From a virus: a stretch of 29,185 nucleotides of DNA. Shown piece after piece: positions 3 to 29,185 of the stretch. Position numbers and translations under genes: made by a program. The DNA is taken from IMG/VR virus record IMGVR_UViG_3300028840_002020, positions 1-29,185 of that record. One strand, given 5' to 3'. Each line of letters begins with the position of its first letter. The first letter of the stretch is position 1. The notes below the pieces were generated by a model that had not been told where the DNA came from, searched no databases, and worked only from the letters and a program-made list of their open reading frames with translations.

Positions 3-851
3 TTCGGGACAGGGGTCAACGACGGGGGCGCCCTCGAAGATCCGACGGTCGCGTCGAAGTTGCTCCCGCTGATCAAACAAAGCCGCGGCAAGATCGCGAA
101 GGTGATCGCGCTTGCGGGTCGGCTCAAGCGAGAGGCGGCGAACGAGCAGAGGAAGGCGCCGCGCTTCGGCGCTGGCGAGCCCGTCGACGTTACGCTCGGC
201 GACGACCTCTCCGATCTCATGCCGGTCGAATACACGAACCGCGCGGTCGAGGGTCCGCTATGGCTCGCGCGCTACGTCGACCGCGCGCTCCTCACGCGCA
301 AGCGTCGCGACGAAGAGCCGAGCAAGACCGGGCCGGTTGTCATGTGTGTTGACTGCTCGGGCTCCATGAGCGGCGATCGGTACGCGTGGGCGATGGCGAC
401 GACGCTCGCTTATTTGCAGATCGCGCGCGAGCAACGGCGCACCTTCGCGGTCGTGTTCTTCGCGTCCAGTGTGATCCGCGTCGTGCGCTTCCCCGGCTCC
501 GACAAGGTCGACCCCTCCGCGGTCGTCGATCTGCTCTCGTTCGTTCGCCCCGGTGGAGGGACGGCGTTCGCCGAGCCGCTCGACGCGGCGTACAAGATCA
601 TTCGCGAGGAGCCCGACTACAACAAAGCCGACGTGATCATGATCACCGACGGGGGATGCTACTTGACCGACGAGTGGCTCGACAACTGGAACGCGACCCG
701 CAAGCGCGACGGCGTGGGGGTCTTCTCGATCCTGATCGGGATCGGCGTAGAGGGGAGCACGAACGAGAGGTTCAGCGACGAGACCGTGAGCCTCGACGAC
801 GAGATAAGCAAGGGCGACGCCGACGCGATCCCGCTCTTCGGGAGGGTTTAG
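3..851 (+). CDS. VWA-domain protein (ViaA/CoxE-like), 5' end missing
   Basis: The frame is open from base 3, so the gene starts upstream of the window; a TTG at 60 is only an internal in-frame codon. The visible 282 residues hold a von Willebrand A fold: the MIDAS signature DCSGSMS, a later GGGTAF threonine loop and an ITDGG aspartate. These three elements together bind a divalent metal. The stretch before the VWA (basic helices, then GDDLSDLMPVEYTN) resembles the linker found in ViaA/CoxE-type proteins, which work with MoxR-family AAA+ ATPases. A MoxR partner would be expected upstream but is outside the window. The stop lies 4 bases before the Top6A-like gene, so the two are probably co-transcribed. 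The VWA call is firm; the ViaA-like assignment and any partner are inference. Confidence 0.85.
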   Translation, partial: FGTGVNDGGALEDPTVASKLLPLIKQSRGKIAKVIALAGRLKREAANEQRKAPRFGAGEPVDVTLGDDLSDLMPVEYTNRAVEGPLWLARYVDRALLTRKRRDEEPSKTGPVVMCVDCSGSMSGDRYAWAMATTLAYLQIAREQRRTFAVVFFASSVIRVVRFPGSDKVDPSAVVDLLSFVRPGGGTAFAEPLDAAYKIIREEPDYNKADVIMITDGGCYLTDEWLDNWNATRKRDGVGVFSILIGIGVEGSTNERFSDETVSLDDEISKGDADAIPLFGRV

Positions 852-855
852 AAAA

Positions 856-1740
856 ATGAAAAAACAGTTCGACGACATCAACCTTCGCGGCGACTCGTTG
901 GAGAGGATCGAGACGATCAATCTGATACTTGAAAACTACGCGCGACAGGGATTCGACCTCACTCTTCGCCAGCTTTATTACCAGCTTGTTTCGAGAGACA
1001 TTATCCCGAACAATTTGAAGTCGTATAACCGACTCGGCGACGTCGTGAACAAGGGGCGCCTCGTCGGTCTGATCGATTGGGATATGATCGTCGACCGGGG
1101 GCGCTCGACCAATTGGGGCGCGCACTGGGAGAGCCCCGCGGAGATCGTGAACGCCGCGGCGAATCAGTTCAGGATCGACAAGTGGGAGGATCAGCCCTGG
1201 CACGTCGAGGTATTCGTCGAGAAGCAAGCGCTCGAAGGCGTGCTGATCCCTACGTGCGAGCGGCTCGATGTGCGCTTCACGGCAAACAAGGGATACTCTT
1301 CGCAATCATTCATGTACCGGAAGGGCGTCGCGTTGCGCGAGAAGATAGACGAGGGGAAAGAGATCGCGATCCTCTACCTCGGGGATCATGATCCGAGTGG
1401 GCTCGACATGGATCGCGACGTGTTGGAGAGGCTCGCCGCGTTTGCCCGCGTCGAGGTTGACGACCTCACGTTCGAGCGGCTCGCCTTGACACGCGAACAG
1501 ATCAGGCAGTACACACCGCCGCCGAACCCGGCGAAGATTACGGACTCGCGCGCTGGTCGCTACATAGCGAAACACGGGCGCGTTTCATGGGAGCTTGACG
1601 CCTTGGAACCGCGCGTTCTCGCGAAGCTGGTCTCGGACGCGGTTCTCAAGTTCAGGGACGAAGACCGATGGGACGCGGCGGTCAAGCGCGAGCGCAAAAT
1701 GCGCGACGACCTCAAGGCGTTCGCGAGGGACTACCGATGA
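856..1740 (+). CDS. Topo mini-A-like protein (Spo11/Top6A family, no B subunit)
   Basis: This 294-residue protein has the two-domain plan of the type IIB topoisomerase A subunit. The N-terminal winged-helix (5Y-CAP) part carries TLRQLYYQL with a Tyr41-Tyr42 pair at the place of the catalytic tyrosine in Top6A and Spo11. The C-terminal part is a TOPRIM domain with EK at 122-123 and LGDHDPSGLD (Asp177, Asp179), matching the Top6A DxDPxG motif. It is shorter than archaeal Top6A, and no Top6B (GHKL ATPase) gene lies in the window. This fits the Topo mini-A class described in mobile elements. It should cleave DNA through a 5'-phosphotyrosyl link; whether it is a topoisomerase or a break-maker is unknown. 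ATG at 856 follows the VWA stop closely. The next gene starts inside its stop codon. Confidence 0.8.
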   Translation: MKKQFDDINLRGDSLERIETINLILENYARQGFDLTLRQLYYQLVSRDIIPNNLKSYNRLGDVVNKGRLVGLIDWDMIVDRGRSTNWGAHWESPAEIVNAAANQFRIDKWEDQPWHVEVFVEKQALEGVLIPTCERLDVRFTANKGYSSQSFMYRKGVALREKIDEGKEIAILYLGDHDPSGLDMDRDVLERLAAFARVEVDDLTFERLALTREQIRQYTPPPNPAKITDSRAGRYIAKHGRVSWELDALEPRVLAKLVSDAVLKFRDEDRWDAAVKRERKMRDDLKAFARDYR

Positions 1741-1886
1741 GCGGCGACCAGATCCGCGGCTGGCTTCTCCTCGCGCTCTTCCTGCGCGCGTATCCGTGGG
1801 GATTTTTCGAGGCGTTCGAGGCGTTGCTATTGACGGGGCTCCGTACTTTCGCCGCCCTCACAATTGCCACCTTCCCAAGAAAGTAG
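1737..1886 (+). CDS. small hydrophobic protein, probable single membrane segment
   Basis: This 49-residue ORF starts at an ATG overlapping the TGA of the Top6A-like gene (ATGA), the usual translational coupling in this window. Most of the protein is hydrophobic and aromatic (GWLLLALFLRAYPWGFF, then EALLLTGL), which suggests one or two short membrane helices. I do not recognise the family. Size and coupling suggest an accessory to the upstream gene, but no function can be read from the sequence. It could also be a chance ORF, though the overlapping start argues against that. Confidence 0.5.
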   Translation: MSGDQIRGWLLLALFLRAYPWGFFEAFEALLLTGLRTFAALTIATFPRK

Positions 1887-1897
1887 TTGGTAAATTC

Positions 1898-1926: not shown

Positions 1927-1957
1927 TGATCTCACTGGCAATCGTTCGGGGGAACGC

Positions 1958-3199
1958 ATGAAGAGAGAGAGAGTTATCACAGACACCTCGCGCGCGCGCT
2001 TCCTAGCGTGTCCGCGGCGCTACGACTTCGAGGTCGTGCGAATGCAAGAGCGCGAGAAACCCGGCTTCTCACGCTCGCGAGAGTTCGACGATTCCGCGCG
2101 CGAAATGCTCGCCGCGTTCGAGCTACTCAGGGGATGGGGGATCGAGTATCGCGAGGCGGCGATCGGCGCTTGCGGGTCGGAGTTGCTTCGGCTCGCTGGC
2201 GAAGACGAGAGGCGACGCGAGGCGATCGAGTCGGCGCTCGCGGTCGTGTTGCGCTACGCTCGAAAGCATGAAGACGATCTCCGAGGCGTTGCCACCGACG
2301 GCGACCTTCCGATCGTGGCGCATCCGGTTTCGACCCCGCTCCTCGTTCCGTGCCGCTCTTGTGGCGGGCTCGGTTGCGAATCGTGTTCCCAGTTGCGCGA
2401 GGCGGGATGGCGCCGCGCGACCCCGTGGCAATATCGAACGGTTCTCGATTCCGCGGTTTGGATCAATGGCGAGCCCTGGCTCGTCGTGAGGCGCTTCACG
2501 GGCGGCTCGGACGTCGCCGAGATTCGGGACGGTCTAGGGTATCGCTTCGACGACCTCGGGCAATTGTGGGCATTCTCGAAGCTCATAGACGCAACCCCGC
2601 GGGGGATTCTCTACGATGTGATCAGGCGCTCCGCTCCGAGCGAGCCCAAAACGATCAAGTGTCGCAAGTGCAATGGGAGCGGGACGATGGACCCGGCGAC
2701 GGGCGAAGTGTGTCCCGCGTGTGACGGGACCGGCGTCGGCGGTATCTCGAAAGCCGCGTGTGATACGGATCTCTCGACATGGTGGGAAGTCGCTCGCCGG
2801 TATCCTCACCTCGACACGGACGCGCTAAAAGACGAACACGCGGAGCAATTACAGCGAATCAGATCTCGCGGCGACTCATTCTCGTTTCGCGTTGCCCGCG
2901 CAGTCGACCCCGAAGAGATCGTCGAGTGGCGGCGCGAGGCTTACGAAGTGGCGAAAGAGATCGAGCGGTGCGAGAGATCGGGATCATGGCGGCGGAATCA
3001 CCTAGCGTGCAAGGCACCGGGGCGCCGCTGTCCGTTCCGATCGATCTGCGCGAAGCACGACGTCACGCTCTCCGATCGCCTCTCCTTTGCCACAACAGAA
3101 AACCCCGCCGCTCTCGACGCGTGGCGCCCGAGGATCGGCGTCGAGATCGGGCACAACATGATCGAAAAATTAATCTATGAACACGGAGAACCACGATGA
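1958..3199 (+). CDS. Cas4/RecB-fold (PD-(D/E)XK) protein with DnaJ-type zinc fingers
   Basis: The frame is open from 1595, but ATG 1958 with GGGGGAA just upstream is the likely start (413 aa). The N-terminus has FLACPRRYDFE (Cys18), the RecB/Cas4 opening motif. The C-terminus has Cys351, Cys358 and Cys364 in a CPFRSIC context, which with Cys18 resembles the iron-sulfur staple of Cas4/AddB nucleases. QLWAFSKL near 202-209 matches the downstream QxxxY motif. Two zinc-binding inserts follow DnaJ spacing: Cys132/135/140/143 and Cys235/238/252/255 (CxxCxGxG type). The expected D-x-K centre after LDSAVW (164-169) reads LVVRRFTG, so the catalytic Asp and Lys appear replaced. It may be a DNA-binding or end-sensing relative rather than an active nuclease. 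It sits directly upstream of the exonuclease-RecT pair. Confidence 0.7.
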   Translation: MKRERVITDTSRARFLACPRRYDFEVVRMQEREKPGFSRSREFDDSAREMLAAFELLRGWGIEYREAAIGACGSELLRLAGEDERRREAIESALAVVLRYARKHEDDLRGVATDGDLPIVAHPVSTPLLVPCRSCGGLGCESCSQLREAGWRRATPWQYRTVLDSAVWINGEPWLVVRRFTGGSDVAEIRDGLGYRFDDLGQLWAFSKLIDATPRGILYDVIRRSAPSEPKTIKCRKCNGSGTMDPATGEVCPACDGTGVGGISKAACDTDLSTWWEVARRYPHLDTDALKDEHAEQLQRIRSRGDSFSFRVARAVDPEEIVEWRREAYEVAKEIERCERSGSWRRNHLACKAPGRRCPFRSICAKHDVTLSDRLSFATTENPAALDAWRPRIGVEIGHNMIEKLIYEHGEPR

Positions 3200-4570: not shown

Positions 4571-4603
4571 AGAAACCAATCCCCACAACGGAGGAAAAAT
4601 AAA

Positions 4604-6716: not shown

Positions 6717-8092
6717 GCGACGAACCTCGTAAGCCACCTTTCGACATGGACGCCGAGCGCGCGATCCTTGGCTCGGTGTTACTCAACAACGACGCGCTCG
6801 CGCTGGTCCGTCACTGGATAACCGAGCGCGACTTCTACGTGGTTGCACACTCGACGATCTTTTCGGGCATGTTGGAATTGCAAGAGGACGGCGTCGGGAT
6901 TGACACTGTGACCCTCGGGAGCCTACTTACTCGCAAAGGTGAACTCGCTCGCGTCGGCGGTCCGATGGTCTTCGACGGTCTCCTCGATAGCGTTGCGACA
7001 GTCGCAAACGTGGAACACTACGCTCGGATCGTTGCGGAGAAATCCGCGGTGCGTCGTGTGATACATGCGGCGCAAGGCATAGTCGCCGACGGGTTCGCTG
7101 ATACCTGGGACGCCGAAGACTACCTGATCGAATCACAGAGCGCGATCTCGAAAGCGGCGTCGGCGTTTGCCGAGCGCGGCGACACTGTGAAGGAACTCGG
7201 CGACGGCATTGTTGAAACCGCACGAAGAGCAATCGAGGGGCGCGATCCCACTACGCTGATCAAGACGGGTATCTCGGCGATAGATCAATCCGTGGGCGGT
7301 CTTTGGCCCAAAGAGTTGACGGTCATCGGTGGGCGCCCCGGCATGGGGAAGAGTGCGTTCGCGCTGAACCTCGCTATCAATGCGGATCTTGCGGGTCGCC
7401 GGTCGTTGATCTTCACGCTCGAAGACGGGATCGAAAATTTTCAGCAACGGGCGCTCGCCATTCGCTCGCGCGCAACCATGAACCGAATCAGGCGGCGCGC
7501 TGTTCAAGATCCCGAGAAGCTCTTGAGCGCCGCGGAGCGTTTGCGTGAGGTGAAGATCGGGCTCAACGAAACACCGGGGCTTTCCGCTCCCGAGATCTAT
7601 TCGAAGGCGGTCGCCTATCGTGCGAAGCACGGGTCGCTCGATCTTCTGATAATCGATCACTTGCGGAGAATGAGAGGGCGCGGTCAAAGCCGTTACGACA
7701 GGGTTTCTGATTCGGTGCAACGGTGCGCGGACATGGCGAAGGATCTCGGCATCCCGGTCGTGCTCCTCGCACAGTTGAACCGCAAGCTCGAAGAGAGAGA
7801 GGACAAGCGCCCGCGCGCCTCGGACTTGCGGGAGTCGGGAACAATCGAAGAGGACGCTCGCGCGATTTGGTTCCTGTATCGACCGTGGGTTTACGACCGA
7901 GATGCCGACGAGCACGAAGCCGAGTTGATCGTGTCGAAGAGCAATCACGGATCTATCGGCACGATCAAATTGTGGTGCTCCATGAGCGAGATGCGCTTCT
8001 TACCTTGGGCCGGGATTGGAACGACACCCTCCGATCCCTTTGAGGGTGAAACGCGGGACATGTTTCCCGGCAGCAACGGAGATGACTATTGA
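6713..8092 (+). CDS. dnaB: replicative DNA helicase, DnaB family
   Basis: The start is TTG 6713, overlapping the TGA of the initiator gene (TTGA), with GGAGA 7 bases upstream; the longer open frame from 6539 lies entirely inside the initiator gene. The 459-residue product has the DnaB N-terminal helical domain (DMDAERAILGSVLL) and linker, then the RecA-like ATPase: GGRPGMGKSA (Walker A, 206-215), LLIIDHLRRM (Walker B, Asp315), and VVLLAQLNRKLEEREDKRPRASDLRESG with the sensor and arginine-finger region. It unwinds the phage fork as a hexamer on the 5'-3' strand. Walker B usually reads IDYLQL; the His316-Leu-Arg variant is mildly unusual. The next gene starts within its stop codon. Confidence 0.96.
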   Translation: MSDEPRKPPFDMDAERAILGSVLLNNDALALVRHWITERDFYVVAHSTIFSGMLELQEDGVGIDTVTLGSLLTRKGELARVGGPMVFDGLLDSVATVANVEHYARIVAEKSAVRRVIHAAQGIVADGFADTWDAEDYLIESQSAISKAASAFAERGDTVKELGDGIVETARRAIEGRDPTTLIKTGISAIDQSVGGLWPKELTVIGGRPGMGKSAFALNLAINADLAGRRSLIFTLEDGIENFQQRALAIRSRATMNRIRRRAVQDPEKLLSAAERLREVKIGLNETPGLSAPEIYSKAVAYRAKHGSLDLLIIDHLRRMRGRGQSRYDRVSDSVQRCADMAKDLGIPVVLLAQLNRKLEEREDKRPRASDLRESGTIEEDARAIWFLYRPWVYDRDADEHEAELIVSKSNHGSIGTIKLWCSMSEMRFLPWAGIGTTPSDPFEGETRDMFPGSNGDDY

Positions 8093-9273
8093 CCGACGTC
8101 AACAATGACTCAAACGCAACGGTGCTGGTTTGTCAGTGCCGATCGCTTTCCTTCGAGGTTGTTAAGGCCCGCAAGAACTCGATCGATCTCAAGTGCGCCA
8201 AGTGCGGGCTTCCCGCGTCGGTCAAGGCGGCGGGCGTCAACTCGACACCCGTCGAGCAGAGGATCGCGGAGCGCGCGTCGCGGAGCGGCGTCGTTACGTG
8301 CGGAGTGCCGAGCCCTAAGAAAAAGAAACCGAAGGAAGGCGACCAGGGGGGAGCCTCGGGATCGCTGTCCGAGCGAGGCATGAAGACGTTTCGATTTCTT
8401 GTCACCGCGGAACAAGCGGAGACCGTCCATCGCGCGCTCGAAGCGATCCGGCTTCTCAATTTGCGCGACGAGAAATTCCGCGCCCAAACATATCAGGCTC
8501 ACGCGATCGAATACCTCGCGGCGGATTTCCTCGGAGGTGTTCCCCCGCTGATCTTGGATCTCATGGCGGCGGCGGAGGAGCGGATCGACGAAGAGATCCA
8601 GGCGGCGGAAGAGAGGGGCGAGCCGCTGAGTGCGTGGAAGGTTCGCCGAATGAGAGCGGCGAGTCGTGACGAGTTGGCGGAGGAAGTAACAAAGCGGTTC
8701 GACGGAGCCGTGGAAGAGGACGAACCCGCCGACCCGCAAGAACCCGAGGATGAGCCCGACGAACTCGACGTCGTTCCCTTACGGGTCGGAGGGGGAGAGC
8801 AACGGGACGGCGGATCGGTATCTGCAAAAGAGGTCGATCTCTCAGGCGATGGCGAGGAAGTGATCGAGGTTGGGGAAGACTCGGGGGATTACTACGACAG
8901 CGACGAGGACGCGCTCGAATCCTCGGACAACGACGACGGGGGGAGACTGTACGCGGCGGTAACCGCGGCGTTCAGATCGGCGGCTGGCGGCTTTCTCGTG
9001 AGCGTGGGAGAGACCGGGCTCGAAAAGGCCCGCTCTCATTGGGACGCCTCGGGGGGATATCTCCTTTCGATTATCGGAGACCCCGACACGGCGACCGAAG
9101 ACGGAGAGGTTCCTCGCGTCTACGTTTGGATGGAGGGCGACGAGGAGATCGAACTCTCCGAGGAATACGCGAAACTGGTTCCCGGTGGCGAGCTTGGGGT
9201 TATCGAATTGGTAGACGTCCCCCATCCCGATTGGGACGCGCCAATGGTGGCGGATACAAGGGAGGTGCTATGA
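8089..9273 (+). CDS. unknown protein with N-terminal zinc ribbon and acidic C-terminus
   Basis: A TTG start overlaps the DnaB stop (TTGA). The 394-residue product opens with a four-Cys ribbon, CQC then about 20 residues then CAKCG, followed by a Lys-rich patch (KKKKPK). Around 100-200 it is helical (FRFLVTAEQAETVHRALEAIRLLNL, then LMAAAEERIDEEIQAAEERG). From about 215 to 290 it is strongly acidic, and it ends in a small beta-rich domain with repeated VYVWMEGDEEIELS-type strands. I do not recognise the family. The zinc ribbon and coupling to DnaB suggest a replication or transcription role, by context only. The motif TTRCGGGTCG occurs twice here in opposite orientations (8730, 8779), 40 bases apart. 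Confidence 0.8.
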   Translation: MTDVNNDSNATVLVCQCRSLSFEVVKARKNSIDLKCAKCGLPASVKAAGVNSTPVEQRIAERASRSGVVTCGVPSPKKKKPKEGDQGGASGSLSERGMKTFRFLVTAEQAETVHRALEAIRLLNLRDEKFRAQTYQAHAIEYLAADFLGGVPPLILDLMAAAEERIDEEIQAAEERGEPLSAWKVRRMRAASRDELAEEVTKRFDGAVEEDEPADPQEPEDEPDELDVVPLRVGGGEQRDGGSVSAKEVDLSGDGEEVIEVGEDSGDYYDSDEDALESSDNDDGGRLYAAVTAAFRSAAGGFLVSVGETGLEKARSHWDASGGYLLSIIGDPDTATEDGEVPRVYVWMEGDEEIELSEEYAKLVPGGELGVIELVDVPHPDWDAPMVADTREVL

Positions 9274-9641
9274 GCACGGACACGGACAGGAAAAAAGGGA
9301 GAGCCTTGCCGGACGTTTCGGAAGAGATCCTCAAGGCTATCGAGGAAGAGATCGCGACGCTCAACAAGTGGGAAGAGGCGGCGCCGGATGTGCCGTCAAA
9401 GATAGCTTGCGTCGAGGCGCGCGCCCGTCTCAAGGCTTACGTCGCGGCGCTGATCGTCGAGGCAGATATCAAGGTCGTGTCGGCGGTGCGCTCAATGGTC
9501 GCGATGGACTCGGCTCGCGCTCGCGCTGGCGCGGGGATCGGAAAACTTCTCGGCGGCATGGCGCCGACCCGCAAGGACAACGATCAACCGGCGAAGGCGA
9601 GCGAAGGGGAGAGCGAGATCGGTGAAGGTCCGCAAGACTGA
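9270..9641 (+). CDS. unknown helical protein
   Basis: The 123-residue product starts at an ATGA overlap. It is almost entirely predicted helix: a Glu-rich stretch (EEILKAIEEEIATLNKWEEAAP) followed by an Ala/Arg-rich helix with heptad-like spacing, then a polar tail. No catalytic motif, Cys pair or membrane segment is visible. It is the last gene of the replication block before the lysis genes. Confidence 0.75.
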   Translation: MSTDTDRKKGRALPDVSEEILKAIEEEIATLNKWEEAAPDVPSKIACVEARARLKAYVAALIVEADIKVVSAVRSMVAMDSARARAGAGIGKLLGGMAPTRKDNDQPAKASEGESEIGEGPQD

Positions 9642-13555: not shown

Positions 13556-14040
13556 TCATTGTGGCGAAGTTCGTCGAGGACGAAGGCGGTCGGGCGGTGA
13601 ATGTTACGCTATCGGAGCATGGCGATCAGGTGCCGCCCCCTCTCTCGGACACGCCCGCGGATCTCCTCTTGTGGTCGATCCTCAACCCCGGCTCGAAGGT
13701 TGTCGAGATTCTAGCGCCCTCCGTCGGCGACGTGTTCGTCGACGCGATCGCGTTGCTCGTCGCGTTGCCCGAGCGACCCGTAAGCGCATTCATCGAAGAG
13801 TTCGGGCCCAAGTTCGAAAGCATGTGGGGGGACATAGAAAACCAAATCCCGCCGACCAGCGACGGCGACACATGGATCGCGACCGAGGGGGGATGGTCTC
13901 TTCTCGTTCACGCGATTCGCATAAACGGTTTGAGCGGAGAGCGACTTGTCAACGCTCTCGGCGGAGCAATGGATCGCGCCTTCCGCGTTTCGATGCTCTC
14001 CCGAGAGTCGGCGGCGAGACTATCCGGCGAAACCCTGTAG
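13552..14040 (+). CDS. unknown protein
   Basis: ATG 13552 overlaps the preceding TGA; 162 residues. It has strand-forming ends (MIIVAKFVEDEG) and hydrophobic stretches typical of a soluble alpha/beta protein (VVEILAPSVGDVFVDAIALLVALP). No recognised family. It is the last gene before a 98-base gap and may end an operon. Confidence 0.7.
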   Translation: MIIVAKFVEDEGGRAVNVTLSEHGDQVPPPLSDTPADLLLWSILNPGSKVVEILAPSVGDVFVDAIALLVALPERPVSAFIEEFGPKFESMWGDIENQIPPTSDGDTWIATEGGWSLLVHAIRINGLSGERLVNALGGAMDRAFRVSMLSRESAARLSGETL

Positions 14041-14138: not shown

Positions 14139-14819
14139 ATGAGCGATCAGGTATGGAAGGAAAGGTTCGACGAGCTTTGTCACGTTCTGAAACAGACGAT
14201 CCCCGGCTTCGAGATCCGTTACAAGGCGGACTCGTTTCCGTGGAAGGATCTCCCCGACAAGATCGCGCGGATCGATCTGTTTTGGGACGAAGACGCGGCG
14301 ACCACGGTCGGATCTACGATCTGGTTTCCGCGTCGCGAGTATGTAGAGAAGAGCCCGCGCGCCGCGTTCTACACGCTGGCGCACGAAGCGGTTCACGCGT
14401 TCGACTTTGCGAAGGCGAAGGTCGGGTTCGGGATCGGCTACTTGTCGCCGCAAGTTTTCGCCCTCGTGTTCATCGTTGCGGCGATCATTGTTGGCGCTTG
14501 CGGGTCGCTGTTCTGGATTCTCCCCGCGGTGCTGGCGTTGGTAGCGGTTGCCCCGCTCCCCTCCCCGTGGAGGGCGGACGCGGAAGCGCGCGCATATGCG
14601 ATGGGGTTCGCGATCGATCACTGGACCGGGCGAGAGGAGGAGGACCGGCGCGGCTACGTGATCGGCGCTATGACCTCGTTCCTGTATTGGAAAATGGTAT
14701 GGGGGCGGCATCGAGCCGCTCGTCGGATCGATCGGTACGTTTCGCGGATAGCGGGCGACAGGATTTTGTCGGTGTCTCCCGCCTATCGACTCGTCAAGGA
14801 AATCGTAACGACGGAGTAA
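14139..14819 (+). CDS. membrane-anchored HExxH zinc metallopeptidase-like protein
   Basis: The 226-residue product has LAHEAVHAFDF with His82, Glu83 and His86, a zincin HExxH motif. This is followed by a hydrophobic hairpin (about 103-140: VFALVFIVAAIIVGACG, then FWILPAVLALVAV) and then ADAEARAYAM, whose Glu149 is well placed as third zinc ligand. The membrane hairpin thus sits between the zinc motif and the third ligand. The C-terminal half is basic. I cannot assign a named family. Anti-host protease, lysis or cell-envelope roles are all possible. ATG 14139 opens a new block after a 98-base gap with a GC hairpin. Confidence 0.65.
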   Translation: MSDQVWKERFDELCHVLKQTIPGFEIRYKADSFPWKDLPDKIARIDLFWDEDAATTVGSTIWFPRREYVEKSPRAAFYTLAHEAVHAFDFAKAKVGFGIGYLSPQVFALVFIVAAIIVGACGSLFWILPAVLALVAVAPLPSPWRADAEARAYAMGFAIDHWTGREEEDRRGYVIGAMTSFLYWKMVWGRHRAARRIDRYVSRIAGDRILSVSPAYRLVKEIVTTE

Positions 14820-15056: not shown

Positions 15057-15634
15057 GCGGGAAAGCCGTTGTCATAGCGGTCGACCCCGGCGCCAAGTCG
15101 GGATATGCGATCCTAACGGTAGAGCCATCGCCGCGGCTTCTTTACTTCGGGGTGGTCAAGGCGAAAGAGACCAGCGTGAGCCGCGTTCTCGGCGACGTGA
15201 TCGCGACGTTGGTTCGGGAACATCCCGACGTTACGCGGATCGAGCGGGGCGTGATCGAGGATCAGTTTCTCGGGTTCGCGAAGCCGAAGGTCGTCAACGG
15301 TCGACCCGTAAAGACCAACACCGCGATCCCGCAGTCGATGAAAAAGGTCGCGCGCGTTGCGGGTCGCTGGCAAGAGGCGTTCATGTCTCACGATATCCCT
15401 TACGTCGAAGGCGACGACGACGTTCACCCGCAATCGTGGCAATCGAGAGAACTCGGAACGGGATCGAAGAAAGGGCGCGACGCGCTCAAGAAACAATGCG
15501 CCGAAAAGGTGAAGGGGGTCTTCGGTCTCAAGTCGATACCGCAAGACGCCGCCGACGCCGTCTTGATTGGTCGGTATCGTGCGATCGAGTTGGCGACAAA
15601 GATCAGACAAGGGGTTTCGATCGGTGGAGTCTGA
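15053..15634 (+). CDS. RuvC-like Holliday junction resolvase
   Basis: ATG 15053 overlaps the HTH stop (ATGA); 193 residues. The RNase H-fold acidic residues are in place: VIAVDPGAKSGYAIL (Asp11), GVIEDQFLG (Glu69) and QDAADAVLIGRYRA (Asp165, Asp168). This is the RuvC-type arrangement used by many phages to cut four-way and branched DNA before packaging. It would finish intermediates made by the exonuclease/RecT pair. Length matches RuvC (about 170-195). Confidence 0.88.
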   Translation: MSGKAVVIAVDPGAKSGYAILTVEPSPRLLYFGVVKAKETSVSRVLGDVIATLVREHPDVTRIERGVIEDQFLGFAKPKVVNGRPVKTNTAIPQSMKKVARVAGRWQEAFMSHDIPYVEGDDDVHPQSWQSRELGTGSKKGRDALKKQCAEKVKGVFGLKSIPQDAADAVLIGRYRAIELATKIRQGVSIGGV

Positions 15635-16100: not shown

Positions 16101-16875
16101 AATCGAGTGGACAGACAAGACGGCAAACCCCTTTACCGGGTGCGTTCATGGTTGCCCCTACTGTTACGCGAGGAAGTTCTCGAAGCGGCTCGCGGGCAAA
16201 GCGGGAACGGTCTATCACCGACTCGCGGAGAGCGGCGTCGATCCGTTCACTCCCGCTATTCACTTGGACGCGCTCCGCGCCCTCGACGACGAGTTGAGCC
16301 GCTCCCGAAGGTCGAGAAAGATCTTCCTCGGTAGCATGGCGGATTTAGGTTGTCGCTCTCACTGGAAGATCACCGACTGCGATGTCGGCGTTGCGTCGGT
16401 ATCTTCAAGCGTGACGCCCGCGCTGGTACATAGCAGGGTAAAGAAGCTGATCTCTTCCCACCCCTATCACACGTTCCAGATCTTGACGAAGAACCCCGAG
16501 GGGCTCGCGGGCTCATGGCCCCGCAACGCGTGGATCGGCGTTAGCGTAGAGTCGACGAGGGCGGCGTCGCTCCGCGTTCCCGCTCTTCTCGCGCACGTTT
16601 CGAGCGGTTGTCTTTGGGTTTCCGTCGAGCCGCTTCTCGACGAGGACTTCGATCCGTCGGCGCTGGTCGTTGCGGGTCGCGTCCCCGGTTGGATCGTGAT
16701 AGGTGCCGAGACCGGGCGGCGGTCTCCTCGCTCCGCGTCGGAAGCTCTCGCGCTCACCGAGGCGGCGCGGCGGATCTTGGTGTTCGCAAACGAGCAAGGC
16801 ATCCCGGTATTCGTCAAGCGCAACATGCGCGAGCTTGATCTCGGGGAGCATTGGCCGCGGAGGTTCCCGCGATGA
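16090..16875 (+). CDS. DUF5131 phage protein (Gp37/Gp68 family), radical-SAM-like
   Basis: GTG 16090 with GGGGGTGA upstream; 261 residues. IEWTDKTANPFTGCVHGCPYCYARKF has Cys18, Cys22 and Cys25 in the CX3CX2C spacing that binds the 4Fe-4S cluster of radical SAM enzymes. FLGSMADL, FQILTKNPEGL, WIGVSVES, VSVEPLL and WIVIGAETG are the conserved strands of DUF5131, the Gp37/Gp68 family common in phages of GC-rich hosts. Its substrate is unknown; modification of nucleic acid or a small molecule is possible. The gene overlaps neighbours at both ends. Confidence 0.88.
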   Translation: MAHKIEWTDKTANPFTGCVHGCPYCYARKFSKRLAGKAGTVYHRLAESGVDPFTPAIHLDALRALDDELSRSRRSRKIFLGSMADLGCRSHWKITDCDVGVASVSSSVTPALVHSRVKKLISSHPYHTFQILTKNPEGLAGSWPRNAWIGVSVESTRAASLRVPALLAHVSSGCLWVSVEPLLDEDFDPSALVVAGRVPGWIVIGAETGRRSPRSASEALALTEAARRILVFANEQGIPVFVKRNMRELDLGEHWPRRFPR

Positions 16876-19731: not shown

Positions 19732-20144
19732 AGGAATTATTCGACAAGCTCGTCGCCTCTTGGCGCGGTGCGCCTTGGTGGAAAAAGATCCTGATAGGGA
19801 TCGCGATCGTGTTCGTCGCGATCGGTGTCGTTGCAACGGCGGTGTTCTTCCTCGGGCGCAGATCCGACCCGCAAGAGCACGACCCCGCCGTCGACCTCGC
19901 GGTCGGGCGCGGCGACCTCGTCGACGACATGCTCGACGCAAACGAGGCGAGGGATCGGGAACTCGCGGCGGAGGGCGACAGGCTCCGAGAGGAGCGAGAA
20001 GAGATCGAGGACAGGATCGACAACGCGGGAGAGGGTCGAAATGAATTTCATGAAGAGCTTGATCGTGCCGCTGATCGTGGTGACATTGACGGCATTCTCG
20101 CCGCGCGTGATCGGCGACGAGGACACGGGAGCGCCGACGACTAG
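19728..20144 (+). CDS. N-terminally anchored coiled-coil protein, i-spanin-like
   Basis: ATGA overlap with the methylase gene; 138 residues. After a short amphipathic start (MKELFDKLVASWRGAPWWKK) comes one membrane segment (about 20-43, ILIGIAIVFVAIGVVATAVFFLG) and then a long charged coiled coil (DLVDDMLDANEARDRELAAEGD, REEREEIEDRID). N-in topology with a periplasmic coiled coil is the i-spanin (Rz) design. The following gene begins inside it with a secretion signal, echoing the overlapping Rz/Rz1 arrangement. Spanins have little sequence conservation, so the call rests on architecture. Confidence 0.55.
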   Translation: MKELFDKLVASWRGAPWWKKILIGIAIVFVAIGVVATAVFFLGRRSDPQEHDPAVDLAVGRGDLVDDMLDANEARDRELAAEGDRLREEREEIEDRIDNAGEGRNEFHEELDRAADRGDIDGILAARDRRRGHGSADD

Positions 20145-20523
20145 GCGGGAGCTTCCCGAAGGGCGAACGGTAGAGGTCGACGGCGAGCAGTTGCGCGCCT
20201 TCACGCCGAAGGAACTCGCCGAGCTTGTCAAGCTCGAAGACGATTATCTTTGGTTCTTCGACAACTGGAAACTCGCGATCGCCGCGAAGTCAAAAGCACT
20301 CGCCGAAGTTGAGAACCGGGAGTCGAGGCTCTCGATCTGCAAAGAGTCTCTTGACCTAGCCGTGAAGGATCGCGATCTCTTACGGGTCGCATGGACCGAC
20401 GAGAGGCGCCTTCGACTCGAAGCTCGGAACGCCGCCGCGGTGCGCGAGTGGATTCCGTGGGCGCTGGTAGTTGTGGAGTCGATCGCGTTCGGCGTCGTTG
20501 GTGTGTACGCCGCTGCTAAGTAG
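20041..20523 (+). CDS. secreted protein with C-terminal membrane segment, spanin-partner candidate
   Basis: ATG 20041 with GAGAGGG upstream lies 104 bases inside the preceding gene in another frame; 160 residues. It has a signal sequence (MNFMKSLIVPLIVVTLTAFS) ending in an Ala-Phe-Ser region without a lipobox cysteine, a helical charged middle (EYRELV-like, with FFDNWKLAIAAKSKALAEVENRES), and a C-terminal membrane helix (WIPWALVVVESIAFGVVGVYAAAK). Signal plus C-terminal anchor resembles a unimolecular spanin lacking the lipid-attachment Cys. With the overlapping upstream gene it may form a two-component envelope-disruption pair; a holin or other membrane protein is possible. Confidence 0.5.
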   Translation: MNFMKSLIVPLIVVTLTAFSPRVIGDEDTGAPTTRRELPEGRTVEVDGEQLRAFTPKELAELVKLEDDYLWFFDNWKLAIAAKSKALAEVENRESRLSICKESLDLAVKDRDLLRVAWTDERRLRLEARNAAAVREWIPWALVVVESIAFGVVGVYAAAK

Positions 20524-22605: not shown

Positions 22606-22606
22606 C

Positions 22607-23234: not shown

Positions 23235-23490
23235 CGGCTCCGAATTTCGTTGTCGTTGCGGGTCGCTGGTCACGCCATCGGTGCGACGGGTCAAGGCGAA
23301 GGTTCTCCGCCCCGGCGACAAGGAACTCGCGACGGTCGTCTACTTCGACGCGAAGTGTCCAGGGTGCAAGCGACGGTTCGACGCGGCGGGCGTCGGCGAC
23401 GAGGACGCGGAAGCGGACTTTCGCCGCATGATCGCGAGCGAGCCTCGCGCGATCCGACCCGTAAGGGCGAGAGGGGGACGCAAGCGATGA
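23227..23490 (+). CDS. small zinc-ribbon protein
   Basis: The 87-residue basic protein has FRCRCGSLV near the start and FDAKCPGCKRRF, a CxC...CxxC ribbon of the nucleic-acid-binding type, and a basic end (RARGGRKR). ATG 23227 overlaps the gene before by 8 bases. It may bind DNA or RNA, or the phage polymerase. Confidence 0.7.
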   Translation: MSSGSEFRCRCGSLVTPSVRRVKAKVLRPGDKELATVVYFDAKCPGCKRRFDAAGVGDEDAEADFRRMIASEPRAIRPVRARGGRKR

Positions 23491-23795: not shown

Positions 23796-24046
23796 AGACG
23801 CACGAACTCAAGATCGCGCCCGAGTTCTTCGACGCCGTCGTTCGAGGCGACAAGACGTTCGAGGTGAGGCGAGACGATCGCGGGTTCAAGGTCGGCGATT
23901 TGTTGCACCTTCAAGAGCACGACCCCGATACGCACAAATGGACGGGGCGCGCGTGTATCCGTCGCGTGAGCTACATTCTCCCCGGTGGCGCCTATGGGAT
24001 CGACAAAGCGTTCGTTGTGCTGGCGCTCGCGGAGGTGTACCGATGA
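23792..24046 (+). CDS. DUF3850 protein (ASCH/PUA-like fold)
   Basis: GTG start overlaps the preceding stop; 84 residues. HELKIAPEFFDAVVRGDKTFEVRRDDRGFKVGDLLHLQEHD and VSYILPGGAYGIDKAFVVLAL match the DUF3850 pattern (HxLKxxPxxFxxVxxGxKTFExRxxDRxFxVGD) in full length. The fold is ASCH-like, usually an RNA- or nucleotide-binding module; function is unknown. This is a confident family call. Confidence 0.88.
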   Translation: MKTHELKIAPEFFDAVVRGDKTFEVRRDDRGFKVGDLLHLQEHDPDTHKWTGRACIRRVSYILPGGAYGIDKAFVVLALAEVYR

Positions 24047-24546
24047 GCGCAACGGTAACCCCGCTCCCCTGGCTACAGAACGACGCGCTCTTCCGGTCGG
24101 AGTGCGCGGAGGGTCACGCGTGGGAGCGGTGGATCGCTCAACTGTTCGCGCTTCACGGTCTCGACGTGGAGCTACCCGAGCAAGAGATCCGCGAGGACGT
24201 CGCCGATCGTGGTCGCTTCCGTGGCTCGAAGGATCTGGTCGTTGCGGGTCGAGTGATCGAGGTGAAGACCCGCAAGATGGCGCTTGCCAGCGCGTTCGAT
24301 CCGTTGTTCGTTTCCTCGGTCGACAAGTGGGCGGCGATCAATCCGAAGCCGTTCGCGATGGTGATAGTGTTCCGCGAGGACGTCCAGATCCGCGCGATCC
24401 CCGGCGCGCTGATATCGCGCTCGAAGATCGTCGACGTCCCCGACCGCGTGCGCGGCGAGAGTTGCCCGTCGCACGCCATCCCGAAAAGGGAACTCCGCAC
24501 GCTCGATCGTTTAATCCGAGCGTTGCGAACAGGTAAAGAAAGGTGA
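24043..24546 (+). CDS. PD-(D/E)XK nuclease-like protein
   Basis: ATGA overlap; 167 residues. A helix with acidic residues (ECAEGHAWERWIAQLFALHG) precedes GSKDLVVAGRVIEVKTRKM, in which Asp64, Glu73 and Lys75 give the D...ExK catalytic centre. The size and a helix-beta-beta core fit a small restriction-like fold nuclease. It may process phage or host DNA. The named subfamily is not clear to me. Confidence 0.65.
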   Translation: MSATVTPLPWLQNDALFRSECAEGHAWERWIAQLFALHGLDVELPEQEIREDVADRGRFRGSKDLVVAGRVIEVKTRKMALASAFDPLFVSSVDKWAAINPKPFAMVIVFREDVQIRAIPGALISRSKIVDVPDRVRGESCPSHAIPKRELRTLDRLIRALRTGKER

Positions 24547-24550
24547 AGCC

Positions 24551-25374: not shown

Positions 25375-26990
25375 CGATTGATCGCCCGCTCGTCTATCTC
25401 GGATGTCCGTACAGCGATCCCGATCCCGCGGTGCGCGAGGCGCGCTTCCGCTCGGTGAATAGGGTCGCGGTCAATCTCATGCGGACCGGCGCGATCGTGT
25501 TCTCGCCGATCTCGCACTGTCACCCGCTCGCCGCGGCGCATGGTCTCCCGACCGACTTCGAGTTCTGGCGCGAGTTCGATCGCGCTTATCTCGCGTGCTC
25601 CTCTGAAATGGTAGTGTTGCGCGAGGCGGGATGGCGTGACTCGAAGGGGCTCATGGCCGAGCTTGCGATCGCCGACGAGTTCGATCTCCCGGTGCGCTAT
25701 GTCGATCCGATCGAACCGAGCGACGACGAGGTCGAGCCCGAGGAGAGCGACGAGGTGATCGCGCGCTTACGGGTCGCCCTCGACGAACTCGCGAAGCGGA
25801 ACGCGGAGATCGGCGAGGAGCTTTCGATCATCGCGGAGCGGCGGAGGGAAGCGGCTCGCGCGGTCGAGAAGTATCGCGACGAGGTCATGGATCTGAACGC
25901 GTTGCTCACCGAGAAGAACCTAATCATCGAGAACTCGGTTCCGCGGGACTTGTGGCGGCGGACCGCGGCGGAGGTGGACTTGCTCCGCGAGGTGTGCGCG
26001 ATCCCTCAAGGCGGGGTCGTTCGGAAGCGCGACGACGGTGAGATCGTATGGTCGACGGCGGACGCGAACGGGTTCTCCGACGGTGTCGTTCTCGGGCCCA
26101 CGGAAGCACAGAAAAGGATCGATCGGCTTTACGCGGAGAACAACGCGCTCCGCGACAGGGTCGACAGGCTCTCTTCCGAACTCGACGCGATGCGCTACGC
26201 CGACCCCGAGGGAAGCGGGGACAGCGTCGAGCGGCTCCGCGTACAGCTTGCCGGTTGTCTCGTTGCGGCGGAGGGGAACGCGACAGGGAAGAACGACGCC
26301 GAGCCCGGTTCATACGGTTACTCGGAGTCGTTCCGCGCGGTGCGCGAGTTGCGCGGCAACTACGATCGCGCGAAGGCGGAACTCGACGAGGCGCGCGCGC
26401 TCTTCGCCGACTACACCGACGCCCCGCTCGCGGACATGGTTCGAGATCTACTCGAAGAGAACGGCGAGCTTCACGACTCGCCCGACGAGCGGCTCGCCCC
26501 ATCCTCGAAGGCGAAACCCCCAACCGAAGCCGACGAAGAGCGCGACGCGCTCGAAACGACATTGAAGATGGCGACGGCGTCGCTAAACCCCGACGCGTTC
26601 GACGCGTTCGAGTATCTCGTCGATCTGCTTTCGCGCGAGCGAAACCTCGGGTTCAGTGGAGGGAAGGGAACGCCCGCGAATCTCTTCCGCGGTCTCCGCG
26701 CGATAGATGCGGAGCGGCGCCGCCAAGTCTTCGAGGAAGGGCGGACAGCGGAGCACGACGACGGACACACACACGCCGAGCTTGCGATCGCCGCGGCGGA
26801 GCTACTAACCGACGGAACCGACGCAAAGGTCGATCACCCCGAGGGGTTCGATCGGTGGGGGTTGGTAGAGAAGCACGGTTTCAAGGCGACGGGGGGGGCC
26901 CTCGGTCGAATGCGCGCGCTCGCGATCGCTGGCGCGCTCGTTGCGGCGGAGATCGATCGCGTGGACAGGGAGCGGAGGATCAGCACATGA
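25371..26990 (+). CDS. DUF1937 domain - coiled coil - C-terminal EHDD-type phage domain fusion
   Basis: The 539-residue product has three parts. Residues 1-115 match DUF1937 (YLGCPYSDPDPAVREARF, VFSPISHCHPLAAAHGLP, FWREFDRAYL, MVVLREAGWRDSKGLMAE), a nucleoside deoxyribosyltransferase-like fold. Residues about 125-410 are long coiled coils with Arg/Glu heptads, broken by Gly-rich linkers. Residues about 445-535 carry AERRRQVFEEGRTAEHDDGHTHAELAIAAAELL and end with ALAIAGALVAAEIDRVDR, a domain common in phage accessory proteins (ERxRQ...EHDDxH...ELAxAA). DUF1937 proteins are usually free-standing. It starts inside the preceding stop codon and its stop overlaps the next gene. Confidence 0.8.
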   Translation: MTIDRPLVYLGCPYSDPDPAVREARFRSVNRVAVNLMRTGAIVFSPISHCHPLAAAHGLPTDFEFWREFDRAYLACSSEMVVLREAGWRDSKGLMAELAIADEFDLPVRYVDPIEPSDDEVEPEESDEVIARLRVALDELAKRNAEIGEELSIIAERRREAARAVEKYRDEVMDLNALLTEKNLIIENSVPRDLWRRTAAEVDLLREVCAIPQGGVVRKRDDGEIVWSTADANGFSDGVVLGPTEAQKRIDRLYAENNALRDRVDRLSSELDAMRYADPEGSGDSVERLRVQLAGCLVAAEGNATGKNDAEPGSYGYSESFRAVRELRGNYDRAKAELDEARALFADYTDAPLADMVRDLLEENGELHDSPDERLAPSSKAKPPTEADEERDALETTLKMATASLNPDAFDAFEYLVDLLSRERNLGFSGGKGTPANLFRGLRAIDAERRRQVFEEGRTAEHDDGHTHAELAIAAAELLTDGTDAKVDHPEGFDRWGLVEKHGFKATGGALGRMRALAIAGALVAAEIDRVDRERRIST

Positions 26991-27253
26991 GAAAGCTCCT
27001 CGGATTCCTCGCGGTCTCTTTCGGCTTAGTCCCCGGCGTGGTCCAGAACAGGATCACGGGCGTTCGGTCCGCATTGATCAGAGTGAACCCGTTCCTCTTG
27101 CTCTTCGTCGACATGCAACGCGAAGCGCCCGAGCGAGACTTCCTCATGTTCTGGCCCACGTTCCCGATCTTCTATCGGCGCCTCGTTACGACGGGGGGAA
27201 GGTGGGCGGCGCTCAAGGCGATGTCGAGGATTGAGAAAGGGGGCGTCGCATGA
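26987..27253 (+). CDS. unknown small hydrophobic/basic protein
   Basis: ATGA overlap start; 88 residues. The N-terminus MRKLLGFLAVSFGLVPGV could be a signal or membrane helix, with further hydrophobic stretches (NPFLLLFVDM, FLMFWPTFPIFYRRL). Basic end. No family recognised. Confidence 0.65.
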   Translation: MRKLLGFLAVSFGLVPGVVQNRITGVRSALIRVNPFLLLFVDMQREAPERDFLMFWPTFPIFYRRLVTTGGRWAALKAMSRIEKGGVA

Positions 27254-27633
27254 GGGGTTTCATTCGAGAGATCTTTGCGGACGCCGCCTATCTTGGGAAG
27301 GTGTTCCTTGTGTTCGCGGTTGTCGCGCTCGCGCTCGCCGGTGTTCTCTTCGCTGGCGACACGCTGATCGACGTCAAGTACAGGGAGCCCCAACGCGAGG
27401 CGGTCCACAACGAGATCCGCGCGTTCCTTCGAAGCTACTACGGGGAGCCCGGTTATTACGAGGGGGCGAAGCTCGACGCCTACGTCGTCGCATGGATTCG
27501 CGTCTATTGCGGGTCGGAGTTCTGTTCGGAGGATTCGTTGATCCGTTACGGGTCGGAGGCGGAGTCGAGCGTTTACTTTCTCGCGAGGTTCTACCAGTGG
27601 CGCGCGGAGCGGGAAGGGGGAGCGGAGCGATGA
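27250..27633 (+). CDS. membrane-anchored protein
   Basis: ATGA overlap start; 127 residues. One N-terminal membrane segment (about 13-36, AYLGKVFLVFAVVALALAGVLFAG), then a soluble Tyr-rich part with helices (EAVHNEIRAFLRSYYGEPGYY) and two Cys (YCGSEFC) that could form a disulfide. N-in topology is likely. No function assigned. Confidence 0.65.
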   Translation: MRGFIREIFADAAYLGKVFLVFAVVALALAGVLFAGDTLIDVKYREPQREAVHNEIRAFLRSYYGEPGYYEGAKLDAYVVAWIRVYCGSEFCSEDSLIRYGSEAESSVYFLARFYQWRAEREGGAER

Positions 27634-28054: not shown

Positions 28055-28368
28055 ACGAAGACTCGAAGTTTGGCGTTCTCTTGTTCGCGCTCGTCGCGTC
28101 GCTCCTCGTCGCGTTCGGTGCGATCGCCGCAAACATTCTAACGGAGTCGCCGACACCGATCCCGATCGCGGCTCCCCCGTGTCAATGTGACTGCGCTTGT
28201 CCCCCGTGCGAGCCGTCGAGCTACAGCTTCGAGGCGCACGGAGGCGGCGCGATGGTCCAGATCGGAAGCGACCAGTGGGATCGGTGGTTCGAGGATTGGT
28301 TACAGCGGAGCCGCGGAGAGTGCGTCGAGTTCGAGGGCGCGCTTCACTGTTCAGGGGGCAAGCCATGA
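28051..28368 (+). CDS. membrane-anchored protein with CQCDCACPPC cluster
   Basis: ATG 28051 with GGAGGGCGGG directly upstream overlaps the Lar-like stop; 105 residues. One N-terminal membrane segment (about 7-29, FGVLLFALVASLLVAFGAIAANI), a Pro linker, then six Cys in thirteen residues (PCQCDCACPPCEP), then an aromatic soluble part with two more Cys (RGECVEFEGALHC). On the outer side of the membrane these could form disulfides; a metal cluster is the alternative. No family recognised. Confidence 0.65.
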   Translation: MNEDSKFGVLLFALVASLLVAFGAIAANILTESPTPIPIAAPPCQCDCACPPCEPSSYSFEAHGGGAMVQIGSDQWDRWFEDWLQRSRGECVEFEGALHCSGGKP

Positions 28369-28601
28369 GCCGCCCGCTTCGATTTACGGTCGTCGTTCTC
28401 GCGCTGGCGTTCCTTGTGGTCGTGTTCGTGGTCGCGTGGAATGAGATCGCCGACTCGGAGATGGTGGTGACGCGCTCCTTTTGGGGTCACATGGTCTTCG
28501 CGATAGGCGCGACCCTCACCGCCGCGGCGATCGTTTGGGCAGCGGTCGCCGCCCTGGTCGCCGCGATCCAGTGGGCGATCAACGGAGGGGGCAAGCGATG
28601 A
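28365..28601 (+). CDS. two-span membrane protein
   Basis: ATGA overlap start; 78 residues with two hydrophobic segments (about 7-25, FTVVVLALAFLVVVFVVAW, and 42-70, GHMVFAIGATLTAAAIVWAAVAALVAAIQW) and a basic end (GGGKR). The size and two spans resemble class II holins, but nothing specific supports it, and it is far from the amidase gene. Confidence 0.65.
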   Translation: MSRPLRFTVVVLALAFLVVVFVVAWNEIADSEMVVTRSFWGHMVFAIGATLTAAAIVWAAVAALVAAIQWAINGGGKR

Positions 28602-28783
28602 CCAAGCCGACCCGTAAGAGCTTCAACCCGTGCCTCGCCTGTCCGAAGGCTACCAGGGATCGCGAGTGCGAGCGTTGCCAGTTGACCCGATATCGCGAGG
28701 CGCTTGCAACACTGGCCCGCTCTCCGATAGGATCGGAAGCATTCGAGAGCGCACTCAAGATCGCGCGAAAGGTGAAACCATGA
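28598..28783 (+). CDS. small zinc-finger-like protein
   Basis: ATG 28598 overlaps the preceding stop; 61 residues. NPCLACPKATRDRECERCQ gives a CxxC...CxxC finger, followed by a helix (TRYREALATLARSPIGSEAFESALKIARK). It is basic. Probably binds nucleic acid. It contains one reverse copy of the dispersed TTRCGGGTCG motif (28608). Confidence 0.65.
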   Translation: MTKPTRKSFNPCLACPKATRDRECERCQLTRYREALATLARSPIGSEAFESALKIARKVKP

Positions 28784-29185
28784 CACACGAAGAGAAAAAC
28801 GCGAACGTCACGATCTCCCCCGCGGAGATCACCGCGGGCCCCGAGTTCAAGATCACGATCTCGGCGGCGCATTTCGACAAGGGGCTCCGCCCCTCGGTTC
28901 AGCGGATCGAGGAGCCGCTCGGGATCACGATGAACGATCGCCGGACCGCCGTGATCGACGCTCTCCTCGCTTGGTACGCCGAGCAGGAAGAGAAAGGCGT
29001 CCCGACGGTCCCGGTGTACGTTACGGGTCGCCCTGGAACGTGGGTTTCCGCCGCGGGGATCGCGACCAACGCGAAGACCCCGACGGCGCCCCCAAGCCCG
29101 CCCGAGCCCGAGGAGACCAGCGACACCGCCCCCGATACCCCTAAGAACGTCGAGGACGCCCCACAACCCCCGGTAGACGATCCCC
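28780..29185 (+). CDS. unknown protein with Pro/Glu-rich tail, 3' end missing
   Basis: ATG 28780 overlaps the preceding TGA; the frame is open to the window end, so at least 135 residues. The front half is strand-helix (ANVTISPAEITAGPEFKITIS, DRRTAVIDALLAWYAEQEEK). From about 95 it turns into a Pro/Thr/Glu/Asp-rich tail (PPSPPEPEETSDTAPD), probably disordered. Function not recognised. Confidence 0.65.
   Translation, partial: MTHEEKNANVTISPAEITAGPEFKITISAAHFDKGLRPSVQRIEEPLGITMNDRRTAVIDALLAWYAEQEEKGVPTVPVYVTGRPGTWVSAAGIATNAKTPTAPPSPPEPEETSDTAPDTPKNVEDAPQPPVDDP

Follow-up and report, generated by a model that had tools for sequence, protein, structure and literature searches.

A densely repeated, non-palindromic word in an environmental phage, tentatively read as a DNA-uptake-type signal

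Uptake specificity, the preference of a competent cell for DNA that carries a self word, is described in two bacterial families only in the available part of PMC12616744. According to the accessible text of PMC6776037, nearly all of the Pasteurellaceae phages studied accumulate their host's uptake word, with the uptake signal sequence (USS) Hin-USS reaching a plateau of ~750 per Mb; the USS-poor phages named there are one cluster thought to be more recently acquired and phages of >150 kb that are likely lytic. Tens of copies of one asymmetric word per phage genome are also known as the stoperators of cluster A mycobacteriophages, which, in the passages available from PMC6550527 and PMC9283540, are mostly oriented with transcription, are found at promoters or in short gaps between genes, and lose repression if reversed. 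Here we compare with these systems the ten-base word TTRCGGGTCG, found dispersed through the IMG/VR virus record IMGVR_UViG_3300028840_002020, an environmental bacterial virus whose 29,185 b are analysed at full length and are called the window below.

The window holds 22 exact copies of TTRCGGGTCG (14 on the + strand and 8 on the - strand) spanning positions 112 to 29030. This exact recount reproduces the tally of an earlier note made from the letters alone, and the note's rough estimate of fewer than one expected copy agrees with dinucleotide-preserving shuffles of the window (n=100), which gave a mean of 0.20 copies and a maximum of 2. Both forms of the word top the over-represented 9- and 10-mers of the window. 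The word differs from its own reverse complement and is thus non-palindromic; being also short, strongly enriched and present on both strands, it has the general form of uptake words (9-12 nt). Genes were called with a simple script of our own rather than a standard caller (96% coding), and 20 of the 22 window copies lie inside them, some sense and some antisense to the gene. They occupy all three codon frames, as the earlier note had stated; its three cases of an imposed TTA leucine codon (8779, 20380, 25767) likewise stand.

More of the same phage was recovered. A close-pair scan of viral_contigs for the word returned IMGVR_UViG_3300017971_000371 (G017; 49,082 b, 14+15 copies) and IMG/VR 3300017963_000402 (G006; 43,147 b, 14+14 copies), both with 0 copies of the reversed control word. 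These two overlap at 99.9% identity over 7.65 kb, with word sites at a constant offset, and we regard them as two assemblies of one phage arm. A contig found by its RecT gene (L036) matches G017 at 99.1% over its first 462 bases and the window from 578 onward at 99.99%, joining the arm to the window. Contigs conflict near the VWA gene (window 1-611, L036 1-593, G017 1-533): G017 begins with window 611-520 reversed, and L036 runs from G017-like sequence into window 578 onward, a conflict that could stem from strain differences or from a fork in the assembly. Querying with the portal protein of a sister phage (G361, described below), independently of the word, gave 3300028840_003491 (G386; 16,333 b); over 4.2 kb it agrees with the end of G006 at 99.95%. 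It carries 6+7 copies, 3 of them in the overlap, and its new 12,043 bases hold 10 copies against the 7.9 predicted from the window and G017 (51 copies, 78,175 b). The resulting non-redundant set of 92,324 b excludes the last 2,079 b of G386, with 3 further copies, and includes 4,185 b from G006 that are no blind test, since G006 itself was found by the word. The phage is incomplete, in that the contigs contain little or nothing that corresponds to ~51-75 kb of the sister.

The pooled contigs (92.3 kb) contain 61 copies where 1.35 are expected, a density of 660 per Mb or about one copy per 1.5 thousand letters. Aligning them reveals preferences on both flanks: the four 5' positions read G (47/61), C or T (52/61), not A (60/61) and C or G (58/61), and the first 3' position is C or G in 52 of the 61. 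The full motif can be written GYBSTTRCGGGTCGS, 15 bp, asymmetric and with graded flanks; the flanked word occurs at 379 per Mb in the phage. Core position 3 is A in 32 copies and G in 29, with C and T forms absent. One-letter variants barely exceed chance when pooled (34 vs 25.8 expected), three being in clear excess, ATACGGGTCG (7 vs 0.27), TAACGGGTCG (4 vs 0.27) and TTGCGGGTCT (3 vs 0.19). The earlier note was right that the word extends beyond ten bases, but the 61-copy consensus is longer and softer than the CTTRCGGGTCGS it proposed. We also considered a mobile repeat, which was rejected; the copies share no flank past a few bases.

Placement was assessed over the window and G017 together. 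There, 46 of 51 copies fall within called genes (26 sense, 20 antisense, p 0.46), in all three frames, and 5 fall outside. The coefficient of variation of copy spacing is 0.88, which fits random placement (uniform 95% range 0.75-1.27), and no regular spacing was seen in these two contigs. Orientation along one direction of the genome is also balanced, at 34 vs 27 for the 61 copies (p 0.44). The earlier note had proposed a codon-preserving shuffle as the check on its claim of selection on DNA. Such shuffles yielded far fewer than the 46 genic copies observed: synonymous shuffles within genes (200 runs) gave a mean of 2.8 and a maximum of 8, and those that also kept codon junctions (60 runs) a mean of 1.8 and a maximum of 6. 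Looked at from the protein side, 46 of the 55 tetrapeptide positions able to encode the word (84%) are used, compared with 24 of 1,470 (1.6%) for 60 shuffled control words. The codable positions are themselves raised in number, at 55 in 25,056 residues vs 31 in 34,393 in the sister.

Searching with the tail sheath identified 25 other phage records as relatives (two assemblies of the phage itself were excluded), 19 of which are shorter than 50 kb. The word is present in one of the 25, as a single copy in the closest, G361 (65% identity; 113,769 b), which is collinear with the phage and whose ends appear contiguous. Homologues in G361 (E up to 1e-5) were found for 69 of 100 called genes, and 31 of the 100 are without one. 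None of the 31 codable positions in the genes of G361 carries the word. At the 38 word sites with a G361 homologue, 64 of 152 residues (42%) are identical between the two phages, vs 10,065 of 18,832 (53%) elsewhere in the homologous genes (p 0.005 overall, 0.002 against gene means, with residues treated as independent); the word would either have settled in less constrained places or have altered residues. Some conserved peptides differ in their codons alone; LAGR, for example, is CTC GCC GGG CGC in G361 and CTT GCG GGT CGG here. Tetranucleotide signatures are only weakly correlated between the phage and G361 (r = 0.21), suggestive of different hosts. No dispersed word of comparable kind was seen in the three relatives examined whole. 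A more distant relative (G385, L194-L198) has a palindrome of its own, GTCGCGCGAC, at 8 places, of which 6 lie in called genes; it takes the form GGTCGCGCGACC at 6 of the 8 (12 counted on two strands). In G361 itself, an amidoligase (PF12224) lies beside a gamma-glutamyl cyclotransferase (PF06094) at 70.8-72.7 kb (L191 10818-12696).

The earlier note held that its case would fail if related phages lost the word at aligned positions while keeping the proteins. G361 does just this, which refutes a protein-driven origin or a family-wide signal and leaves a lineage-specific DNA signal unaffected. Selection on DNA, the simplest reading in the note, or drive on DNA is supported: the codon-preserving shuffles miss the observed count and the sister keeps the proteins without the word. 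That a lineage-specific pressure acts on DNA, and not on protein, is well supported. The 22 copies in the window, with the gene each falls in, are:

112..121, + strand: copy 1, TTGCGGGTCG, gene 3-851, sense
694..703, - strand: copy 2, TTGCGGGTCG, gene 3-851, antisense
2170..2179, + strand: copy 3, TTGCGGGTCG, gene 1958-3199, sense
7389..7398, + strand: copy 4, TTGCGGGTCG, DnaB-like helicase gene, sense
8730..8739, - strand: copy 5, TTGCGGGTCG, gene 8089-9273, antisense
8779..8788, + strand: copy 6, TTACGGGTCG, gene 8089-9273, sense
9565..9574, - strand: copy 7, TTGCGGGTCG, gene 9270-9641, antisense
13774..13783, - strand: copy 8, TTACGGGTCG, gene 13552-14040, antisense
14498..14507, + strand: copy 9, TTGCGGGTCG, gene 14139-14819, sense
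15302..15311, - strand: copy 10, TTACGGGTCG, RuvC-like gene 15053-15634, antisense
15357..15366, + strand: copy 11, TTGCGGGTCG, RuvC-like gene 15053-15634, sense
16670..16679, + strand: copy 12, TTGCGGGTCG, DUF5131 gene, sense
19865..19874, - strand: copy 13, TTGCGGGTCG, gene 19728-20144, antisense
20380..20389, + strand: copy 14, TTACGGGTCG, gene 20191-20523, sense
23256..23265, + strand: copy 15, TTGCGGGTCG, outside called genes, but within the longer open reading frame 23227-23490
23455..23464, - strand: copy 16, TTACGGGTCG, gene 23281-23490, antisense
24242..24251, + strand: copy 17, TTGCGGGTCG, gene 24043-24546, sense
25767..25776, + strand: copy 18, TTACGGGTCG, gene 25371-26990, sense
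27507..27516, + strand: copy 19, TTGCGGGTCG, gene 27250-27633, sense
27546..27555, + strand: copy 20, TTACGGGTCG, gene 27250-27633, sense
28608..28617, - strand: copy 21, TTACGGGTCG, outside called genes
29021..29030, + strand: copy 22, TTACGGGTCG, gene 28780-29184, sense

The reading that fits these numbers best was absent from the candidates of the earlier note: a DNA-uptake-type self word imposed by a naturally competent host and accumulated in its phage. We put it first among the possibilities at somewhat less than an even chance. What was observed is an exact non-palindromic word with random spread, strand balance and near-saturation, in one lineage and nearly absent from the sister, in a phage that has a recombinase gene; the host, its competence, its receptor and lysogeny are what we infer. 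Mechanistically, the uptake machinery of the host would have a surface receptor with a preference for DNA carrying GYBSTTRCGGGTCGS, and fragments gaining the word by mutation would be imported and recombine with resident prophages more often than others. The word would then spread, irrespective of position, strand and frame, until the encoded proteins tolerated little more. The pattern, uptake words in phages, is a known one, here with a different word. It is a more tentative proposition that GYBSTTRCGGGTCGS represents a third, independently evolved self-specific uptake word outside Neisseriaceae and Pasteurellaceae, one first seen in a phage of the lineage, with a purine-degenerate position 3 and most codable positions used.

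We used Haemophilus phage HP1 (NC_001697) and phage P1 (NC_005856) as yardsticks for uptake words and for Chi, respectively. HP1 carries 17 USS (525 per Mb) and uses 15 of 22 codable positions, with 11 of 335 used by shuffled-word controls. Enrichment over a third-order Markov expectation is 45-fold for the word here, 28-fold for USS in HP1 and 7-fold for Chi in P1, and flank positions rise above threshold for the word and for USS (17 copies only) but not for Chi. Density alone separates no uptake word from Chi (527 per Mb in P1), and one-mismatch behaviour did not discriminate in these three phages either, with observed/expected ratios of 1.32 here, 0.86 for USS in HP1 and 1.03 for Chi in P1. 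In saturation, enrichment and soft flanks, the word appears closer to the uptake words of HP1 than to Chi in P1. Its presence here and near-absence in the sister fit the pattern of carriage among Pasteurellaceae phages, as far as the available text of PMC6776037 describes it, and a word-poor sister with another tetranucleotide signature is expected if the sister's host differs.

Several results weigh against an uptake word. The first is the genome search. Six samples of 49, 289, 369, 329, 247 and 296 genomes gave 1,579 rows, of which 17 were drawn twice, leaving 1,562 distinct genomes. The bare word was counted in the 49, which are the genomes behind chance hits, and in the 289, from the class of an alphaproteobacterial metagenome-assembled genome (MAG); the flanked word was counted in the 369, from the class of Alloalcanivorax, and in the 329, 247 and 296, from the phyla of Polyangia, Acidobacteria and Acidimicrobiales MAGs. 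The groups sampled, assigned by the titles of the centre loci, were Alpha- and Gammaproteobacteria, Myxococcota, Acidobacteriota and Actinomycetota. None of these ~1,560 distinct genomes came near the word density of the phage. The highest bare-word density was 76 copies in 3.4 Mb (~22 per Mb). They belong to G027, an Acidobacteria MAG with 19 copies of the reversed control and 1 of the flanked word, which is among the few genomes in the set of 49 that exceed the reversed control, all far below the phage. For the flanked word the highest was 11 in 4.9 Mb, ~2.2 per Mb vs 379 per Mb in the phage. This sampling argues against a trait common to the sampled groups, not against a trait of one missed family.

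Secondly, three pair-pattern scans of viral_contigs, of limited sensitivity, did not reveal the dispersed word in any further phage lineage, which matters because a competent host should have several phages. In the first of these scans (27 stretches), 21 were counted as whole records and 6 were short contigs counted whole; in the third (22 new stretches), the word was counted in part of the record only. Thirdly, TTRCGGGTCG matches none of the dialects given in the available text of PMC12616744 (DNA uptake sequences, DUS, with a CTG inner core; AAGTGCGGT; ACAAGCGGT), holding CTG on neither strand and GCGG in the R=G form only. Finally, the confinement of reported specificity to two families in that text makes the prior for an uptake word low. 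Other approaches to a host were also negative. A close-pair scan of genome_contigs, covering the collection only in part, gave at least 118 stretches, and those with most copies were local arrays. The best tetranucleotide match to a host was an 8-kb Pseudorhizobium stretch at r only 0.60. No tRNA remnant in L227, L228 or the window reached a family's gathering score, and none of the titles among the matches listed in a literature search for the word strings concerns such a signal. If this is an uptake word, transformation self-recognition evolved a third time, and systems of this kind in uncultured bacteria could be detected through the genomes of their phages. The competing readings predict either that the word is dense in the host chromosome or that a phage protein binds it.

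We rank an uptake-type word first, a phage-encoded genome-wide binding site second and a Chi-like signal third. The second of these, which we consider rather unlikely though a serious competitor, takes the word as the site of a direction-blind phage protein (nucleoid-like, partition, packaging-selection or genome-silencing) for which each extra site helps, the sites having been gathered after the split from the sister along with the protein's specificity. It is favoured by the limitation of the dispersed word to one phage lineage in everything searched, by a 15-bp asymmetric motif whose graded flanks resemble a protein site, and by the 31 genes of 100 that have no homologue in the called gene set of G361, which include the following:

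19057-19731, + strand: DNA N6/N4 methyltransferase (PF01555), no homologue among the G361 called genes

Also in favour, the window encodes at 14832-15056 on the + strand a Fis-family helix-turn-helix protein of 74 residues (HTH_8, E 7e-07, above cut-off). As the reader of the word this Fis-like protein is disfavoured because the word-poor sister has it too, at 59% identity and with RTLRRWL of the helix-turn-helix identical. No other candidate for sequence-specific DNA binding appeared in 51 of 52 window genes (Pfam or PHROGs; the scan left out the 48 genes of G017), and near-saturation of codable positions (46/55) goes beyond what a few dozen functional sites need. If the word is phage-encoded, it amounts to a genome-wide, orientation-free DNA signal that occupies most of the open coding capacity; among the matches listed in our literature searches there was no comparable phage system.

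Less probable again is a Chi-like signal of a host AddAB/RecBCD-type nuclease, collected to protect and recombine linear DNA ends. The phage does encode a RecE-like exonuclease and RecT, and P1, with 50 Chi (31+, 19-) in 94.8 kb, shows at 7-fold enrichment that large phages can also be dense in host words of other kinds than uptake words. The word here, however, with its ten almost invariant positions and its flanks, is longer than the Chi octamer compared, and to our knowledge other Chi words are also short. Chi in P1 lacks flank signal above threshold, falls well short of 45-fold enrichment, and uses 44 of 116 codable positions (38%, with 97 of 3,126 for shuffled controls) vs 84% for the word here; nor did the ~1,560 genomes include an enriched host.

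We regard it as very improbable that the copies are stoperators or operators, the asymmetric sites, many per genome, that the repressor of a temperate phage binds to silence its prophage, cluster A mycobacteriophages being the example. Asymmetric sites in tens of copies across the genome and a tyrosine recombinase gene would suit such a system, but the balance of 26 sense and 20 antisense copies and the location of only 5 of 51 outside called genes do not. These same two observations disfavour silencing by oriented sites, which bears on the silencing site listed among the earlier note's candidates; the Chi-like, nucleoid, packaging and segregation roles that it named still count as candidates.

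A protein-driven origin is ruled out, and chance, repeated peptides or codon usage have a negligible claim to having created the word: the one point in their favour is that it can be read as short peptides (LAGR and VAGR, for example), and they are refuted by the synonymous shuffles and by a sister using 0 of its 31 codable positions.

Besides the RecE-like/YqaJ exonuclease and RecT, window genes include a DnaB helicase, an amidase, a RuvC-like resolvase, DUF5131 and the DNA methyltransferase. A tyrosine recombinase gene on L227, a contig of the phage (7264-7881), matches Pfam Phage_integrase at E 1.4e-24 and is homologous to that of the sister (67.6% over 176 codons; Pfam E 6.9e-20 for the sister's gene); an integrase gene being a mark of temperate life, the phage is probably temperate, with lysogeny presumed from the gene. 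At 22159-22605 on the + strand the window encodes a match to Tad4, which inhibits type I Thoeris defence (Pfam PF25186, E 4.5e-29; phrog_9822), a hint that hosts of the phage may carry Thoeris, and at 23792-24046 on the + strand a DUF3850 protein (E 4.8e-29) with an ASCH-like match (E 7.3e-06).

An iteron-like unit around AACAATG/ATCAATGAT forms two related arrays, at window 6162-6206, within the gene directly upstream of the DnaB helicase, and at 22779-22824, directly ahead of gene 22833; repeat finding at a minimum length of 14 reported neither. They are candidates for a replication origin, and for the array at 6162-6206 the lambda O gene, which holds an internal origin, offers an analogy. 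A further word, AGGTAAAG, is over-represented in the phage and its sister (window 17099, 20558, 24531; G017; G361), has a same-strand start codon called 0-25 b downstream of 16 of its 23 copies, and resembles an unusual ribosome binding site. In the window and G017, GGCC, CCGG, GATG and GTAC are strongly avoided, and GATC, CATG and GGGCCC are in excess; the tetramer avoidance may reflect host restriction pressure.

Set beside known systems, the word shares with HIP1 of cyanobacteria the character of a highly iterated short word, but HIP1 is palindromic and TTRCGGGTCG is not. Like the E. coli Chi in P1 (527 per Mb in ~95 kb), it would be a dense host word in a phage; Chi, however, is an octamer without flank signal and with lower enrichment and use of codable positions, and the frequency profile of Chi in this single yardstick phage, modest enrichment without flanks, is not that of the word here. 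Cluster A stoperators are likewise asymmetric, number tens of sites per genome and vary in motif between related phages, but in the available parts of PMC6550527 and PMC9283540 they follow transcription and occupy promoters or short intergenic spaces, and the word here does neither. With the DUS of Neisseriaceae, as presented in the accessible text of PMC12616744, it has in common a short length (9-12 nt) and high enrichment in the genomes that use it, although it is without the CTG inner core. The Hin-USS and Apl-USS of Pasteurellaceae phages differ from it in sequence, and the phage here is GC-rich (~61%) with its word known from phage DNA alone. Nonetheless, to the extent that the available text of PMC6776037 describes them, they resemble it in a non-palindromic 9-10 bp core with soft flanks, in densities of hundreds per Mb, in placement on both strands and within genes at most codable positions, and in a carriage that varies among phages.

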